DNA of 22,926 nucleotides from a virus: positions 1-22,926 of the IMG/VR virus record IMGVR_UViG_3300047666_000782; one strand, written 5' to 3'. The position numbers and the translations under genes are program-made. The notes under the pieces are model-generated. The model saw only the letters and a program-made list of their open reading frames with translations. It was not told the DNA's origin and did not search any database. Numbering within the stretch: the stretch's first letter is position 1; each line of letters starts with the position of its first letter. Shown here in pieces: positions 7,224-13,753 of the stretch.

Positions 7224-9860
7224 ATGGCGGACACTAAAAGTACGATTGAGCTAATTTTCGAGGGCGTCGATAAAACCTCGGCCGCCACTAAATCCGCGCT
7301 CGCCAATACCTCGAAATTTTCCCAGGGTGTAAGCTCGGCGACCCAGCCGATCGCGGATTTTACCGGCAGCGCCCTAAAATTAGAGGCCGCGATTATAGCC
7401 TCCGGGATCGCAATAACCGCGTTTTCGATTTCACTCGCTAGCGATTTCCAGAGCGCCGTCGCGGATCTCAGTAAAGTATTATCCGACACCGACGACATAG
7501 AACAGTATAAAAACCTCGCCGTCGAATTATCCCAGGAGTACGGCGTCGCGGCCCTGGACGTTTTGGGGGCGATCACAAACTACAAACAAGCCGGTTTTAC
7601 CGCTAAAGAGGCCGGCGAGCTCACTAAAGCGGGCCTCGATCTCGTTATCGCCGGCAGCGTAGAGGCGGCCCAGGGCGCCGATCTATTAGTCGCGTCGATT
7701 AAGGGTTTCGGGGCCGAGGCGGGCGACGCGTCGATTATTGTCGACCTGTTAAACCAAGTTTCTAACGAATACGCCGCCTCGACGGGCCAGTTATTGGAGG
7801 GTTTCGCGCAGTTATCCCCGGTCGCCCAGGCCGCCGGGTTATCGTTAGAGGAAACGATCGGAATACTAACGCCAGGTATTGAGGTATTCCAAAGCGGATC
7901 GGAGGTCGCCCAGGCGTTAAAAACAAGTTTACTAAGATTACTCGACGACTCTAAGCCAGTCCAGGAGGGGCTCGAGGCGCTAGGCGTTTCGCAGTTCAAA
8001 ACTAACGGCGAGCTCCGGAGCGCTCGGGATATCTATTTCGACGTCGCGGCCGCCCTGGGCGGTGTGGACGACTCACAAAAACTATTTATAGCGTCCCAGT
8101 TAGTCGGTATAAATCAGTCCGCGAAATTTATAGCGATTACAGACGGCCTCGACACGACTCTACGAATCGCCGGCGACGGTTTCGAGTTTTTAGGATCCGC
8201 AGCGAAGGAGGTCGCGGTCCAATTAGCGACCGCAGAAAAAGCCGGCGACCGTGCGAAACAGTCTTTCGTTAATTTATTCGTCGGGATTGGTACGCCGATA
8301 CTCGACGAGTTTACGGGGGTGGCGGACGCCCTGGCGGCTATTTTCCAGGCGATCGGCGACTCGGCGACAAGTGGCGACAGCGGTATCGGCACACTCGTTA
8401 GTTATATCGAGGGTGAATTTTCCGGGTTACAGGAGGTACTCGAGGAGGTCGCCAAAAATCTACCGGCCGCGCTCGAGCTCGCCGACTTTTCGGGGTTTAC
8501 CAATGGCGTAACCGTCGTAAGCGACGCGATAAAAAACTTATTCGAGGGCGTCGATCTCAGTTCCGCGGAGGGCCTGGCGGCGGCTATTACGGGAATCGGG
8601 ACCGCGTTCGAGGCGCTTTCTGAATTTTCCGGCGGGGTTATCGATTCGTTTAAACCGCTATTCGAGAAAATACTCGAGGTCGCCGGGGGTTTAAAGGATC
8701 TCGACGGCGTTACGTTTGAAACGCTCGGAAATATGGCGGGTTTCGCTACCCAGGCGAATATTCTAGCGAAGGGGTTAAACTCTCTACTCGGTCCCGTCGA
8801 GGCCCTGGTTTATATCCTGGCGGCCAAAAACGGCCTCGGGCTCGCCAGCGCGCTATTAGCGACGACGGCTAACGCGTCCAAGTTAGTAGGCGTTTTAGGT
8901 AGCGCCGGCCTGGTAGCCGCCGCGGGCGCCGCCGGTTTCGCGCTCGGGACCTTTTTAGATAAAGCCTCCGAGGATCTAACCGGGACTTCGATCAGTACGT
9001 TTTTAGTCGATACCGCTATTAATATGGGTTTACTCGACGACGCCGCCGGCGACCTGGTAGCCGGTTTAAACGATCTACCGTTCGCGGGGCTCGGAAAGGA
9101 CGTCGAAAGCGCCGCCGTCGCGTTATCCGGTTACGAGGACGTAATTAACTCAGTCGGGACCAATACGGACGCCGCCACAGATTCCTCGTTTAACTTTGCG
9201 GAGAGTATGGGGGGCGTGGCTAACAGCGTGGCCCAGGTCGGCCAGGAGGGGGTCGGAGAAATCCGCGCGCTATCCGACGGTCTATTAGACGCGGGGCAAT
9301 CCGCCGGGGAGCTCGACGAGGCCGGCCAAAGTCTCGGGGGTACGTTATCGTTCGTCGGATTACAGGCTAGCGAGGCCGCAGAGAAAACGAAATCCTGGTC
9401 CCAGGTCGTCGAGGAGCTATCGATCGAGGAGAAACTGGCGCTAATCGATGCCCAATCCGAAATTACGACCGCGAGAATCGACGCTGACGCGAAAAAAACA
9501 GTAGCGGCCTACGAGTCGATCACGGTTTCGATAGAGTCCACAGGGGAGTCGTTAACGAGCCTATTTGGACTATTGGGGGACGACTCGATTTCTAAGCTCG
9601 ATAAATTGGATATATCCGACCAGATCGAAAGAGAAAACAACCTCCGAGAAAAGACGTTCGAGCTACAGTCAAAATTGACCACGGCACAGATACGGGCCCT
9701 AAACGCCCAGGCCGACGCGCTCCGCGGAGGCGATCCGATAATAACGGTAAATGGCGACGGCCTGGCGCCGCATTTACAGGCGATCATGTTCGAGGTGCTC
9801 GACGCGATACAGATACAAGTTAACGCCGACGGGTACGGTTTATTATTGGGGACCCCATGA
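7224..9860 (+). CDS. Tail tape measure protein (878 aa)
   Basis: The N-terminal third carries the TP901-type tape measure core: SDFQSAVADLSKVLSD, LAVELSQEYGVAALDVLGAI, YKQAGFTAKEAGELTKAGLD and VSNEYAASTGQLLEGFAQLS. The middle has hydrophobic, Gly/Ala-rich segments (ALLATTANASKLVGVLGSAG, LVAAAGAAGFALGTFLD) as in tape measures that may form a channel in the host membrane. The C-terminus is helical and charged (EREN...LREKTFELQSKL). Lengths around 880 residues correspond to tails of roughly 120-140 nm by the usual 1.5 angstrom per residue rule. The start is three bases after the G-T stop; TGA overlaps the next ATG. Confidence 0.9.
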   Translation: MADTKSTIELIFEGVDKTSAATKSALANTSKFSQGVSSATQPIADFTGSALKLEAAIIASGIAITAFSISLASDFQSAVADLSKVLSDTDDIEQYKNLAVELSQEYGVAALDVLGAITNYKQAGFTAKEAGELTKAGLDLVIAGSVEAAQGADLLVASIKGFGAEAGDASIIVDLLNQVSNEYAASTGQLLEGFAQLSPVAQAAGLSLEETIGILTPGIEVFQSGSEVAQALKTSLLRLLDDSKPVQEGLEALGVSQFKTNGELRSARDIYFDVAAALGGVDDSQKLFIASQLVGINQSAKFIAITDGLDTTLRIAGDGFEFLGSAAKEVAVQLATAEKAGDRAKQSFVNLFVGIGTPILDEFTGVADALAAIFQAIGDSATSGDSGIGTLVSYIEGEFSGLQEVLEEVAKNLPAALELADFSGFTNGVTVVSDAIKNLFEGVDLSSAEGLAAAITGIGTAFEALSEFSGGVIDSFKPLFEKILEVAGGLKDLDGVTFETLGNMAGFATQANILAKGLNSLLGPVEALVYILAAKNGLGLASALLATTANASKLVGVLGSAGLVAAAGAAGFALGTFLDKASEDLTGTSISTFLVDTAINMGLLDDAAGDLVAGLNDLPFAGLGKDVESAAVALSGYEDVINSVGTNTDAATDSSFNFAESMGGVANSVAQVGQEGVGEIRALSDGLLDAGQSAGELDEAGQSLGGTLSFVGLQASEAAEKTKSWSQVVEELSIEEKLALIDAQSEITTARIDADAKKTVAAYESITVSIESTGESLTSLFGLLGDDSISKLDKLDISDQIERENNLREKTFELQSKLTTAQIRALNAQADALRGGDPIITVNGDGLAPHLQAIMFEVLDAIQIQVNADGYGLLLGTP

Positions 9861-11272
9861 GGATAGCAATTAATACCCTGGTTTTTGATCTACTCGGCGC
9901 CGTCGATTTTGAGGTCGTCCAGCCATTCGAGAGCGACGAAACTCGCCGGCGGGTTACGCGTGTCCCTACCCTGGACGGATCCGCGGCGATTAATGATTAC
10001 GGGTATTCGGAAGCCGATCGCACGATCTCATTTAAATGGGCGACAGTCTCGGCCGCGCATACCGCCCAGGTCGAGAGATTATTTAGGCTATACGCTAACG
10101 TGAGAGTGTGCCGGGGGGTGGATGTTTTTACTACGGTCCCCCAGGTATTTAAACCAGGCGTCGCGGAATGTTCGGCGACTTTTTTAGTGCTGAATAAGTC
10201 GGCGGAGTATGTGACGCCACCGGCGCCGACTCCGGTAGTGCCGGACGGCCCGGATCCAGCATTACCGCCCGACCCCAGCCCAGGCGGCGCGGTCGGTAGT
10301 TTTACGTCCCTTACAGTCATTAACGCGGGCGTTATCACCAATACCCCGGACGGGACGTATAACTACAAAAACCCCGGTATTACAAACGGCGGCGGCCGCG
10401 GCGGTGCGGTAGCCCTGGTAATATCTGGCGGCGTGGTAACGTCCGCGACGCGCGTAGCGGGCAGAGGTAACGGCGGATATTATTACAGCGTCGGCGATCA
10501 GTTCGTCGCAGACCCGACAGGAAATAGCCAGTCGACCCACCCTAACCGGGCGGATATGACTACCTATCCGATTCTACAAGTCGCCGCTATAAGTACCGCG
10601 GACGCGTTACCCGCGTCGGATATGTGGGCGCCTGGCGGGGTGGCGCCGAAAGTCGAGGGATCATATACGGCGCCAACGGCTACACAGACCGCATGGGTTC
10701 CGGCGACTAACGTACAGACCGGCGGCGCGACCGGGGTAATGCTCAAGCTAACAATGTCCAACGGGGCGTTACTTAATACCGTATCGGGTATAAATGCGGC
10801 CAATCCCAACGCGAGAAGGGCGGCGGCTACCAGCTACGAGCCAGGCGACGAGCTCGCTCTCGATCTATCCATTTTCGGAGTAACCAACGTAACGACGGCG
10901 CCGGTGTGGCGCGTTAGATACCTCAATCCGCCATTTTTATACGACGCCTTTCCCGGTTTTGGCGGTTACGTTAACCGCGTTAGTTGTACGGTATTGGGCA
11001 CTATGTCAGGCGTCCCGGACGACCTATATACATCGGTGGCCGAGGTTTCTAATTCCGGGTCGGGCTCCGGCGCGCTATGGGCCGTGCGGACTATCGGTAA
11101 CGCCGTTAACGGCGCTAACGCCGTGGGTATATTTGGGTTCAATTTCGGAAACGCTAATTACGCCGCCGGGGATACCATCGTTTTAAATTTAGCCGCGGCA
11201 GTTCCAGGCGGCGCGTCGGTGTCGGTTAACCCGACTATTGTCGTTACCTATTGCGAGATCGACGAAGATTAA
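9857..11272 (+). CDS. Tail-tip or fibre-like structural protein (471 aa)
   Basis: Directly follows the tape measure with ATGA overlap. Residues 1-~115 form a compact domain (FEVVQPFESDETRRRVTRVP, GYSEADRTISFKW) reminiscent of proteins at the tail tip that bind the end of the tube. A Pro-rich linker (PPAPTPVVPDGPDPALPPDP, ~121-142) separates it from a long Gly/Ala/Thr-rich beta-type region (~145-471) of the fibre or decoration kind. I do not recognise a named family. The modular build suggests a tail-attached N-domain carrying an exposed receptor-facing domain. Confidence 0.6.
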   Translation: MRIAINTLVFDLLGAVDFEVVQPFESDETRRRVTRVPTLDGSAAINDYGYSEADRTISFKWATVSAAHTAQVERLFRLYANVRVCRGVDVFTTVPQVFKPGVAECSATFLVLNKSAEYVTPPAPTPVVPDGPDPALPPDPSPGGAVGSFTSLTVINAGVITNTPDGTYNYKNPGITNGGGRGGAVALVISGGVVTSATRVAGRGNGGYYYSVGDQFVADPTGNSQSTHPNRADMTTYPILQVAAISTADALPASDMWAPGGVAPKVEGSYTAPTATQTAWVPATNVQTGGATGVMLKLTMSNGALLNTVSGINAANPNARRAAATSYEPGDELALDLSIFGVTNVTTAPVWRVRYLNPPFLYDAFPGFGGYVNRVSCTVLGTMSGVPDDLYTSVAEVSNSGSGSGALWAVRTIGNAVNGANAVGIFGFNFGNANYAAGDTIVLNLAAAVPGGASVSVNPTIVVTYCEIDED

Positions 11273-11324: not shown

Positions 11325-11543
11325 ATGACAACACAGACAAGACTAGACGCCTACCTGGCGGCCGAGCTCGAGATTTTAAAGGGCCAAGAGATCCGACACG
11401 GCGACAAAACGCATAGAATGGCGGAGCTCGAGCAAGTCCGAGACATAATCGAACGACTAGAGGGTAGGCTAGCGAGAGAGGCCGCGAAGGCCGCCGGCCT
11501 AAATTTACGACACAGCCTCGCCAATTTAAACCGAGGGGGCTAA
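11325..11543 (+). CDS. Head completion / neck protein, gpW- or DUF6148-like (72 aa)
   Basis: The small helical protein begins TRLDAYLAAELEILKGQEIR and has a charged second helix (MAELEQVRDIIERLEGRLAR), the helix-hairpin-helix outline of gpW and of DUF6148 proteins. It sits immediately upstream of the portal gene, as W does before B in lambda. gpW-type proteins bind under the portal after DNA packaging and create the surface for head-tail joining. A GAGGG site precedes ATG 11325 by about 11 bases. Its stop is one base before the portal GTG. Confidence 0.65.
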   Translation: MTTQTRLDAYLAAELEILKGQEIRHGDKTHRMAELEQVRDIIERLEGRLAREAAKAAGLNLRHSLANLNRGG

Positions 11544-11544
11544 T

Positions 11545-13023
11545 GTGAATAACTTAGATAAATTAATCGGCTACTTTTCACCAGGCGCGGCGGTAAAACG
11601 TGAGGGCGCCCGGAAGGTACTCGGCTATTACGAAGCGGCGGAGCCCTCGAGGATGAGGAATTTTTATCGTAGCCGCGGAACACAGAACGAGCTAATGCAG
11701 CGCTCGGCCGTGGCAATCCGGACACAGACCCGCCACCTAATACGAAACCACGACCTAGCCCGCGGAGCGCTCCGGACCCTGGTTAATAATGTCGTGGGTG
11801 CGAAGGGGATCGGAGTCGAGCCCCAGCCTAGAAATAACGACGGAGAAATTAACGACGAGTACGCGAAAACCCTATCGACACTATATCGGGAGTGGTGTCG
11901 TAAGCCGGAAGTAACCCACCAGCTCAGTTATAGCAGGGTACAGCGCGCCGCGGTCCGGGCGTGGGTCCGGGATGGGGAAATTTTCGCGCAGATGATACAG
12001 GGCAGCGCCGCCGGACTCGATCACGGGTCGACCGTGCCATTTTCTCTCGAATTATTCGAGGCGGACCTAGTACCGTTCGATCTAAATTCGGAAGTCGATA
12101 AAATAGTCCAGGGGGTGGAGCGTAATCGATGGGGTCGCCCGGTCGCGTTACACGTTATACAGACCGAGCCCTGGAAAGCGTCCGCCCCGGCGCGCGCGAA
12201 TACGACGCGGATCCCGTGGTCCAGAGTTTTACATCTCGCCTCGATGGACAATATCGGCCAGGTCCGAGGTATGTCGGAGTTCGCCAGCGTTATACAGCGC
12301 CTCGAGGACATTAAGGATTACGAGGAGTCGGAAAGAGTCGCCGCGAAAATTGCGGCAATGTTAACGGCCTACGTTAAAAAGGGCTCGGCCGATCAATTCG
12401 ACGCGACCGCAGTAGCGGACGCGGACCGGGAAATAAAATTCCAACCGGGAATGGTAATCGACGATCTACAAAGTGGCGAGGAGATCGGCCTAATAGATTC
12501 GACACGGCCTAATAGTAACCTCGTTAAATTTAGACAGGGCCAGCTCCGCGCCGTCGCCTCCGGCCTGGGCGGTAGTTATTCGTCGATCAGTAAAGACTAT
12601 AACGGGACATATTCGGCCCAGCGCCAGGAGCTCGTCGAGCAGTGGATTAACTACGCCGTTTTAACCGACGATATGGTATGTGATTTCGTACAGCCTACCT
12701 GGGCGAAATTCGTAGAAACGGCCCACCTATCGGGGGTGGCTCGCCGCCCGGCGGAAGTAATCGAGGATACCGCGGCCGACGCGTTTTTCGTCGCCCAGGC
12801 CATGCCGTGGATAGATCCACTAAAAGAGGCGCTGGGATCCGAGGCGCTAGTTAAGGCCGGTTTCGCGTCCGAAATAGAAATGATACGACGAAGGGGCGGA
12901 GATCCGCGCCAGGTTATGGAACAGATCCAGAAGTGGAGAGAGGAGGCCGCCGAGCGCGGGCTCGTTTTCTCGAGTAACGAGGCCGCATTACAAGCGGCGA
13001 CAATCGCCAGCGCCACCGAATAG
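11545..13023 (+). CDS. Portal protein, lambda gpB family (492 aa)
   Basis: The whole length fits lambda-type portals: N-terminal AAEPSRMRNFYRSRGT, RNHDLARGALRTLVNNVVGA, the WVRDGEIFAQMI segment, WGRPVALHVIQTEPW, IPWSRVLHLA, QVRGMSEFASVIQRLEDIKDY and the family signature SSISKDYNGTYSAQRQE. It forms the dodecameric DNA gate at one head vertex, the docking site of the terminase. GTG 11545 has GAGGGGG six bases upstream; the nearby ATG 11543 is followed at once by a stop. The C-terminal ~55 residues recur in the next gene. The position after the tail genes is unusual. Confidence 0.92.
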   Translation: MNNLDKLIGYFSPGAAVKREGARKVLGYYEAAEPSRMRNFYRSRGTQNELMQRSAVAIRTQTRHLIRNHDLARGALRTLVNNVVGAKGIGVEPQPRNNDGEINDEYAKTLSTLYREWCRKPEVTHQLSYSRVQRAAVRAWVRDGEIFAQMIQGSAAGLDHGSTVPFSLELFEADLVPFDLNSEVDKIVQGVERNRWGRPVALHVIQTEPWKASAPARANTTRIPWSRVLHLASMDNIGQVRGMSEFASVIQRLEDIKDYEESERVAAKIAAMLTAYVKKGSADQFDATAVADADREIKFQPGMVIDDLQSGEEIGLIDSTRPNSNLVKFRQGQLRAVASGLGGSYSSISKDYNGTYSAQRQELVEQWINYAVLTDDMVCDFVQPTWAKFVETAHLSGVARRPAEVIEDTAADAFFVAQAMPWIDPLKEALGSEALVKAGFASEIEMIRRRGGDPRQVMEQIQKWREEAAERGLVFSSNEAALQAATIASATE

Positions 13024-13034
13024 AGGGTTAAAAT

Positions 13035-13352
13035 ATGCCAGCATCATCAGCAGCGACCGCCGCGGTTTCAAATATCGCCGGCGCCCGCGAGGCCGCTATC
13101 GACCTGGCGGAAGGTTTAGCCCAGGCGAGCCCGTGGCTTAAAAACTCCCCGATCGTGTTCGACCTTGATTTTTTAACCGAGGTAATCGAGATCAGACTCG
13201 AGGAGATCAGGGCCGCCGGGGGTGGCGTTTCGGATTTCGTGGAGCAAGTCGGCCAGGTCCGCGCGGAGGCCGAATCGAAGGGCGTTATTTTCTCGAGCTC
13301 GGCCGCGGTGCTCGAGCAAATGGCGGGCGCGATTTACGCGGCCACCGAATAG
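13035..13352 (+). CDS. Small paralogue of the portal C-terminal tail (105 aa)
   Basis: Not a recognised family on its own, but its last ~55 residues repeat the end of the preceding portal. Portal RRRGGDPRQVMEQIQKWREE aligns with RAAGGGVSDFVEQVGQVRAE here; portal RGLVFSSNEAAL aligns with KGVIFSSSAAVL; both end in ATE. The DNA also shares TTTTCTCGAG and GCCACCGAATAG. The N-terminal half (AAVSNIAGAREAAIDLAEGL) is helical and has no portal counterpart that I see. It may be a separately made portal-tail module binding the portal, W or terminase. A GAGGG site precedes ATG 13035 by about nine bases. Confidence 0.65.
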   Translation: MPASSAATAAVSNIAGAREAAIDLAEGLAQASPWLKNSPIVFDLDFLTEVIEIRLEEIRAAGGGVSDFVEQVGQVRAEAESKGVIFSSSAAVLEQMAGAIYAATE

Positions 13353-13363
13353 GCGGGCGTTTT

Positions 13364-13753
13364 ATGACAGTCCCGACAGCGCCGACCTATGGAGTATCTA
13401 CCCTAGTCGCGGTCCAGACCGCGGTACTAGCGAAAATAGACGCCGCGGTGGGTGGGGGTAAGGTGCGAATGCGGTCGGCTACAGATCAGCTACTCGTTAC
13501 CATCCCGCTAACAGATCCCGCCGGGACCGTTTCGGCCGCGGGTGTGTTAACACTAACCGCGGCCGGTACAGACACCAGCCCGATACTAGGGACGGTCGCC
13601 TACGCAGAGATCACCGACGCGAGCGACGTCGTAATACTCTCGTTACCGGCCCAGGCCGGGACGGTCGCCGTATCGGGTAAACTCGTTATAAACACGCTCG
13701 ATGTGGTCCCCGACGCAGTGTTTACGCTTGCTACGATAACAATAGGCCCCTGA
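13364..13753 (+). CDS. Small beta-rich phage structural protein (129 aa)
   Basis: Unrecognised beyond a resemblance to small phage proteins encoded near tail fibre genes. It has a short N-terminal helix (VSTLVAVQTAVLAKIDAAVG) followed by repeated Thr/Val/Ala strands (TVSAAGVLTLTAAG, GTVAVSGKLVINTL). No Cys, no membrane segment. The composition and the tight spacing to the LamG-like gene (one base) suggest a virion component at the tail end or an appendage. Function is not determinable here. Confidence 0.6.
   Translation: MTVPTAPTYGVSTLVAVQTAVLAKIDAAVGGGKVRMRSATDQLLVTIPLTDPAGTVSAAGVLTLTAAGTDTSPILGTVAYAEITDASDVVILSLPAQAGTVAVSGKLVINTLDVVPDAVFTLATITIGP

Follow-up and report, generated by a model that had tools for sequence, protein, structure and literature searches.

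The portal proteins of lambda-family phages end in a crown, which comprises residues 453–511 in lambda gpB (PMC10721106) and residues 476–551 in the R4C portal, where alpha9, one of its three helices, lines the opening into the capsid; such crowns form a helical opening towards the packaged DNA (PMC10276861). The crown end of portals is evolutionarily variable, the C-terminal barrel of P22 being long and phi29-type portals being crown-less, and its role is debated, full and empty SaPI1 particles showing no major difference in the crown (PMC10541612). In the P22 and phi29-type cases the variation lies inside the portal polypeptide. In the 22.9-kb virus record analysed here (IMG/VR record IMGVR_UViG_3300047666_000782, 22,926 nt, hereafter the window), by contrast, a crown piece is encoded by a gene of its own, next to a complete portal gene. 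This gene, X105, is almost certainly homologous to the crown domain of lambda-family portals, as judged from the sequence comparisons below. The features concerned are the following.

11545–13023, + strand: portal protein, 492 amino acids (PF05136, E=1.5e-91)
12787–13020, + strand: portal residues 415–492, assigned as the crown domain and homologous to X105 (alignment; R4C 473–524 against query 421–472; helices in the AlphaFold2 (AF2) model)
13035–13352, + strand: X105, stand-alone crown-like gene, 105 amino acids (homology; ratio of non-synonymous to synonymous divergence, dN/dS; GAGG)
13116–13349, + strand: X105 residues 28–105, the crown-homologous part (alignment and tail profile; best conserved at residues 54–95)

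The original prediction, made from the sequence of the window, was that the C-terminus of the portal resembles the 105-amino-acid protein encoded next to it, and this is borne out. Local alignment of portal residues 415–492 with X105 residues 28–105 scored 98, as compared with a mean of 34 (sd 5.3) and a maximum of 67 in 5,000 shuffles, while a search of the window's own record gave the match at E=8.5e-8. X105 likewise matched the portal tails of other phages: against a profile of 53 portal tails, from which the window sequences were excluded, it scored 21.6 bits, the top of 5,000 shuffles being 8.3, and hhalign matched its residues 22–94 to 54 portal tails with a probability of 95.9% (E=5e-9). 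The similarity had been put at ~55 residues; ~78 residues align, with ~25% identity to the neighbouring portal across the whole tail. No Pfam family was found in X105 up to E=1, the portal body model PF05136 matching the neighbouring portal but not X105. The DNA ends of the two genes had also been described as alike. The words TTTTCTCGAG and GCCACCGAATAG are each present solely at the portal and X105 ends; nevertheless, this is weak evidence, as the best DNA alignment score between the two genes was reached in 175 of 1,000 codon shuffles.

By sequence, the portal aligns to the R4C portal (8gtd), query residues 421–472 corresponding to 473–524, and its structure model is nearest to the lambda and R4C portals. 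On these matches, the part common to the portal and X105 is the crown, inside the capsid. AF2 places helices in the portal tail at residues 425–438, 443–449, 454–470 and 479–491, and in X105 at residues 44–60, 65–81 and 90–104, in register with the last three of the portal helices, the mean predicted local distance difference test score (pLDDT) for X105 being a moderate 67. X105 thus resembles the lambda-family crown in sequence family and in the helix order of the alpha10–alpha11 hairpin, over ~78 residues, and the alignment shows that this hairpin, the FSS turn and the C-terminal helix are retained. Unlike lambda-family portals, X105 is a separate gene without wing, stem and clip, and most of the alpha9 residues at the DNA opening have been lost: the near-invariant alpha9 stretch MPWIDPLKEA...GFASE reads SPWLKNSPIV...EVIEI in X105, in which P, W and one L remain. 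Two of the functions first proposed for a free portal tail, tuning of terminase docking and filling of the portal–gpW interface, are unlikely, because terminase and the gpW adaptor both bind the clip, far from the crown, which sits at the opposite end of the portal; a cap at the inner end is possible. Among the loci compared here, which carry L numbers, the portals of L017, L060, L070, L071, L079 and L082 have a long C-terminal extension past the crown, ending in a shared ERDxxTxxIxRxVTxYE-like motif.

The same portal–X105 arrangement is found in L003, a contig of 4 kb that comes from a different sample (X105 at L003 3165–3482), the portal proteins being 100% and the X105 proteins 93% identical. 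In this single pair of sequences, on which the estimate of selection is based, X105 shows 9 synonymous and 7 non-synonymous codon differences (dN 0.032, dS 0.163, dN/dS ~0.2). Randomised placement of the substitutions gave 13.8 ± 1.8 amino-acid changes, with 7 or fewer in none of 2,000 trials, and on these grounds X105 is very probably a protein under selection. It is less constrained than the portal, for which dN is 0, and its changes are unevenly placed, six falling in residues 1–56 and one in residues 57–105. Neighbouring genes in the same contig pair have a dS of 0.02–0.07, and the 0.16 for X105 is two to eight times as high, hinting at recombination or a different constraint at this spot.

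X105 lies on the same strand as the flanking portal and Y129 genes within the structural operon, with 11 nt separating it from each, and a Shine–Dalgarno-like GAGG stands 8 nt 5' of its ATG. Its position, spacing and GAGG suggest that it would be made from the late head–tail operon, directly after the portal. A portal–X105 fusion by frameshift or readthrough was ruled out, X105 being in a different frame with a TAA (13029–13031) between the portal stop and the X105 ATG.

We favour, tentatively, the reading in which X105 serves as an accessory head protein, made late, that works at the crown, on the capsid side of the portal and hence at its inner end, because X105 is crown-derived, adjoins the portal gene and has retained the hairpin. 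X105 is a genuine protein gene that descends from a lambda-family portal crown and has diverged such that the hairpin with its FSS turn and the C-terminal helix were kept while most of the conserved alpha9 residues were not. The retained hairpin may pack on the portal crowns, or on other X105 copies atop the crowns, and X105 could then be an accessory factor in the assembly or incorporation of the portal ring, or an inner collar or cap for DNA packaging and retention. It is more doubtful that the crown has here turned into an independent head protein on or in the portal-ring crown, so that the portal would be built from two genes and its inner end could be separately tuned for assembly, for fill sensing or for retention of the genome. 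Several observations weigh against a role at the portal's inner end. The loss of most near-invariant alpha9 residues may mean that X105 no longer joins the crown ring; a fold search with the X105 AF2 model, itself of moderate pLDDT, gave no significant match, and comparison of X105 with solved structures gave chance matches only; and in L004 and L014, whose portals are 67–70% identical, X105 is absent and a Y129 homologue lies within 6 nt of the portal.

In lambda, the head gene for gpC has a C-terminal portion that is also a separate accessory protein, Nu3, which is made from an in-frame internal start; X105 differs in being a diverged separate gene. Small head-operon products also lie inside the head near the portal, as with 80alpha gp44 and the P22 ejection proteins, although X105 is likened to these by functional analogy only and they are not known to be portal-derived. 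A separate crown-derived gene in a natural phage would provide a piece that can be deleted or swapped with the essential portal ring untouched, and X105 would clearly exemplify how one domain can give rise to a new gene inside a head operon.

X105 may instead have been co-opted for a job unrelated to the portal ring, as a small helical late protein with crown ancestry only. This is less likely than a role at the crown, but it is the strongest of the alternatives. Its low identity to its own portal, its very long branch in trees, the disappearance of most conserved alpha9 residues and the free change of its N-terminal half are all as expected of such a protein; retention of the hairpin and FSS turn, and of the gene's place beside the portal, are not.

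Less credible is that X105 is functionless debris from the movement of a gene cassette. The cassette and its present 3' neighbour comprise, apart from the portal, the following genes.

11325–11543, + strand: gpW-like head–tail adaptor, 72 amino acids, opening the gpW–portal cassette (phrog_118, E=2.5e-14)
13364–13753, + strand: Y129, 129 amino acids, the gene after X105, which adjoins the portal directly in L004 and L014

In ~37 related contigs the gene downstream of the tape measure protein (TMP) gene adjoins Y129 without gpW–portal between them, and the cassette appears to have moved into this site in the present lineage. The 3' border of the moved cassette coincides exactly with the place of X105, and the existence both of contigs with the site but no cassette and of L004 and L014, with the cassette but no X105, fits such an origin. 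Against this stand the dN/dS of ~0.2 and a frame that has stayed open despite the loss of synonymous similarity to the portal; when merely the 19 substitutions that separate the two X105 copies are placed at random, the frame stays stop-free in no more than 48% of trials. Across the loci compared, the gpW–portal cassette precedes the ClpP–capsid fusion in 56; it lies between FII-like and Z-like genes in L007, L008 and L015, between the TMP-downstream gene and Y129 in the window, L003, L004 and L014, and after fibre genes in L005 and also in L118, L127 and L131.

A role for X105 as a portal mimic, either as a decoy against portal-sensing host defences or as a competitor tuning portal oligomerisation, is slightly more improbable still. 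SpbK and Avs4-type defences are triggered by portals (PMC12847820), and a detached domain could compete. That the portal-sensing defences in that paper bind clip, stem or wing makes a decoy less likely, and the late-operon location of X105 is atypical for counter-defence genes. That the similarity itself arose by chance between two helical proteins rich in alanine and glutamate, with whole-tail identity of merely 25%, can be set aside almost entirely: composition-preserving shuffles never attained the score, conserved crown residues are among the matched columns, and, with a cut-off as lax as E<=1, the tail profile picked out no other short open reading frame (ORF) among all those of at least 40 amino acids in 159 loci.

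The further proposal that X105 arose by tandem duplication of its own portal is a reasonable guess but is not established. Codons agree at 12 of the 27 identical portal/X105 residues, as compared with 10.7 ± 2.4 expected from codon usage, and synonymous sites are saturated; this chance-level agreement, together with a DNA score within codon shuffles, rules out a recent duplication. X105 is far diverged from all portals and no nearer to its own than to others: the L060 portal has 21 of 35 core residues in common with X105, and the window's own portal 14 of 35. In one tree test its own portal was a slightly poorer sister of X105 (difference in log likelihood 2.6, approximately unbiased test p-AU 0.05), while in another the grouping of the two was not rejected (p-AU 0.59). 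X105 is either a duplicate that is old or evolves fast, or a fragment of another phage's portal. An internal start yielding a free crown from the portals of relatives was also considered and rejected, as the region ahead of the crown held no conserved start that also had a ribosome site: the invariant M420 has such a site in 0 of 103 portals, and a GTG at 364 is accounted for by conserved Q-E-L-V codons.

X105 is rare, being present in one phage lineage, in the two contigs represented by the window and L003; the pair of portal and short gene thus recurs in one related contig but not in L004 and L014. No further stand-alone crown was found in ~1,150 genomes, 50,697 phage records and 159 loci, although single-sequence searches with X105 detect fairly close relatives only. 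Among viral contigs beyond L003 there was likewise none, L157–L159 being whole portals. Among 399 Caldimonas-order genomes and 388 from the Opitutaceae phylum, the single hits lay in frames of 537 and 576 amino acids and no stand-alone crown was seen; 369 Marinobacter-class genomes yielded no matches at all, and hence a weak negative. All matches in a profile search of 150 genomes were in frames of at least 499 amino acids. Consistent with the original prediction that no example had been described, none was found in the searched open-access literature.

Besides gpW and the portal, the window encodes a ClpP–capsid fusion, a cement protein, FII-like and Z-like genes and a tape measure gene, with fibre-like genes and an integrase 3' of the portal region. 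In the gene after the tape measure (9857–11272), the glycine-rich C-terminal part of ~340 amino acids is without family matches and is specific to the window and L003, and the N-terminal part of ~130 amino acids is widespread.
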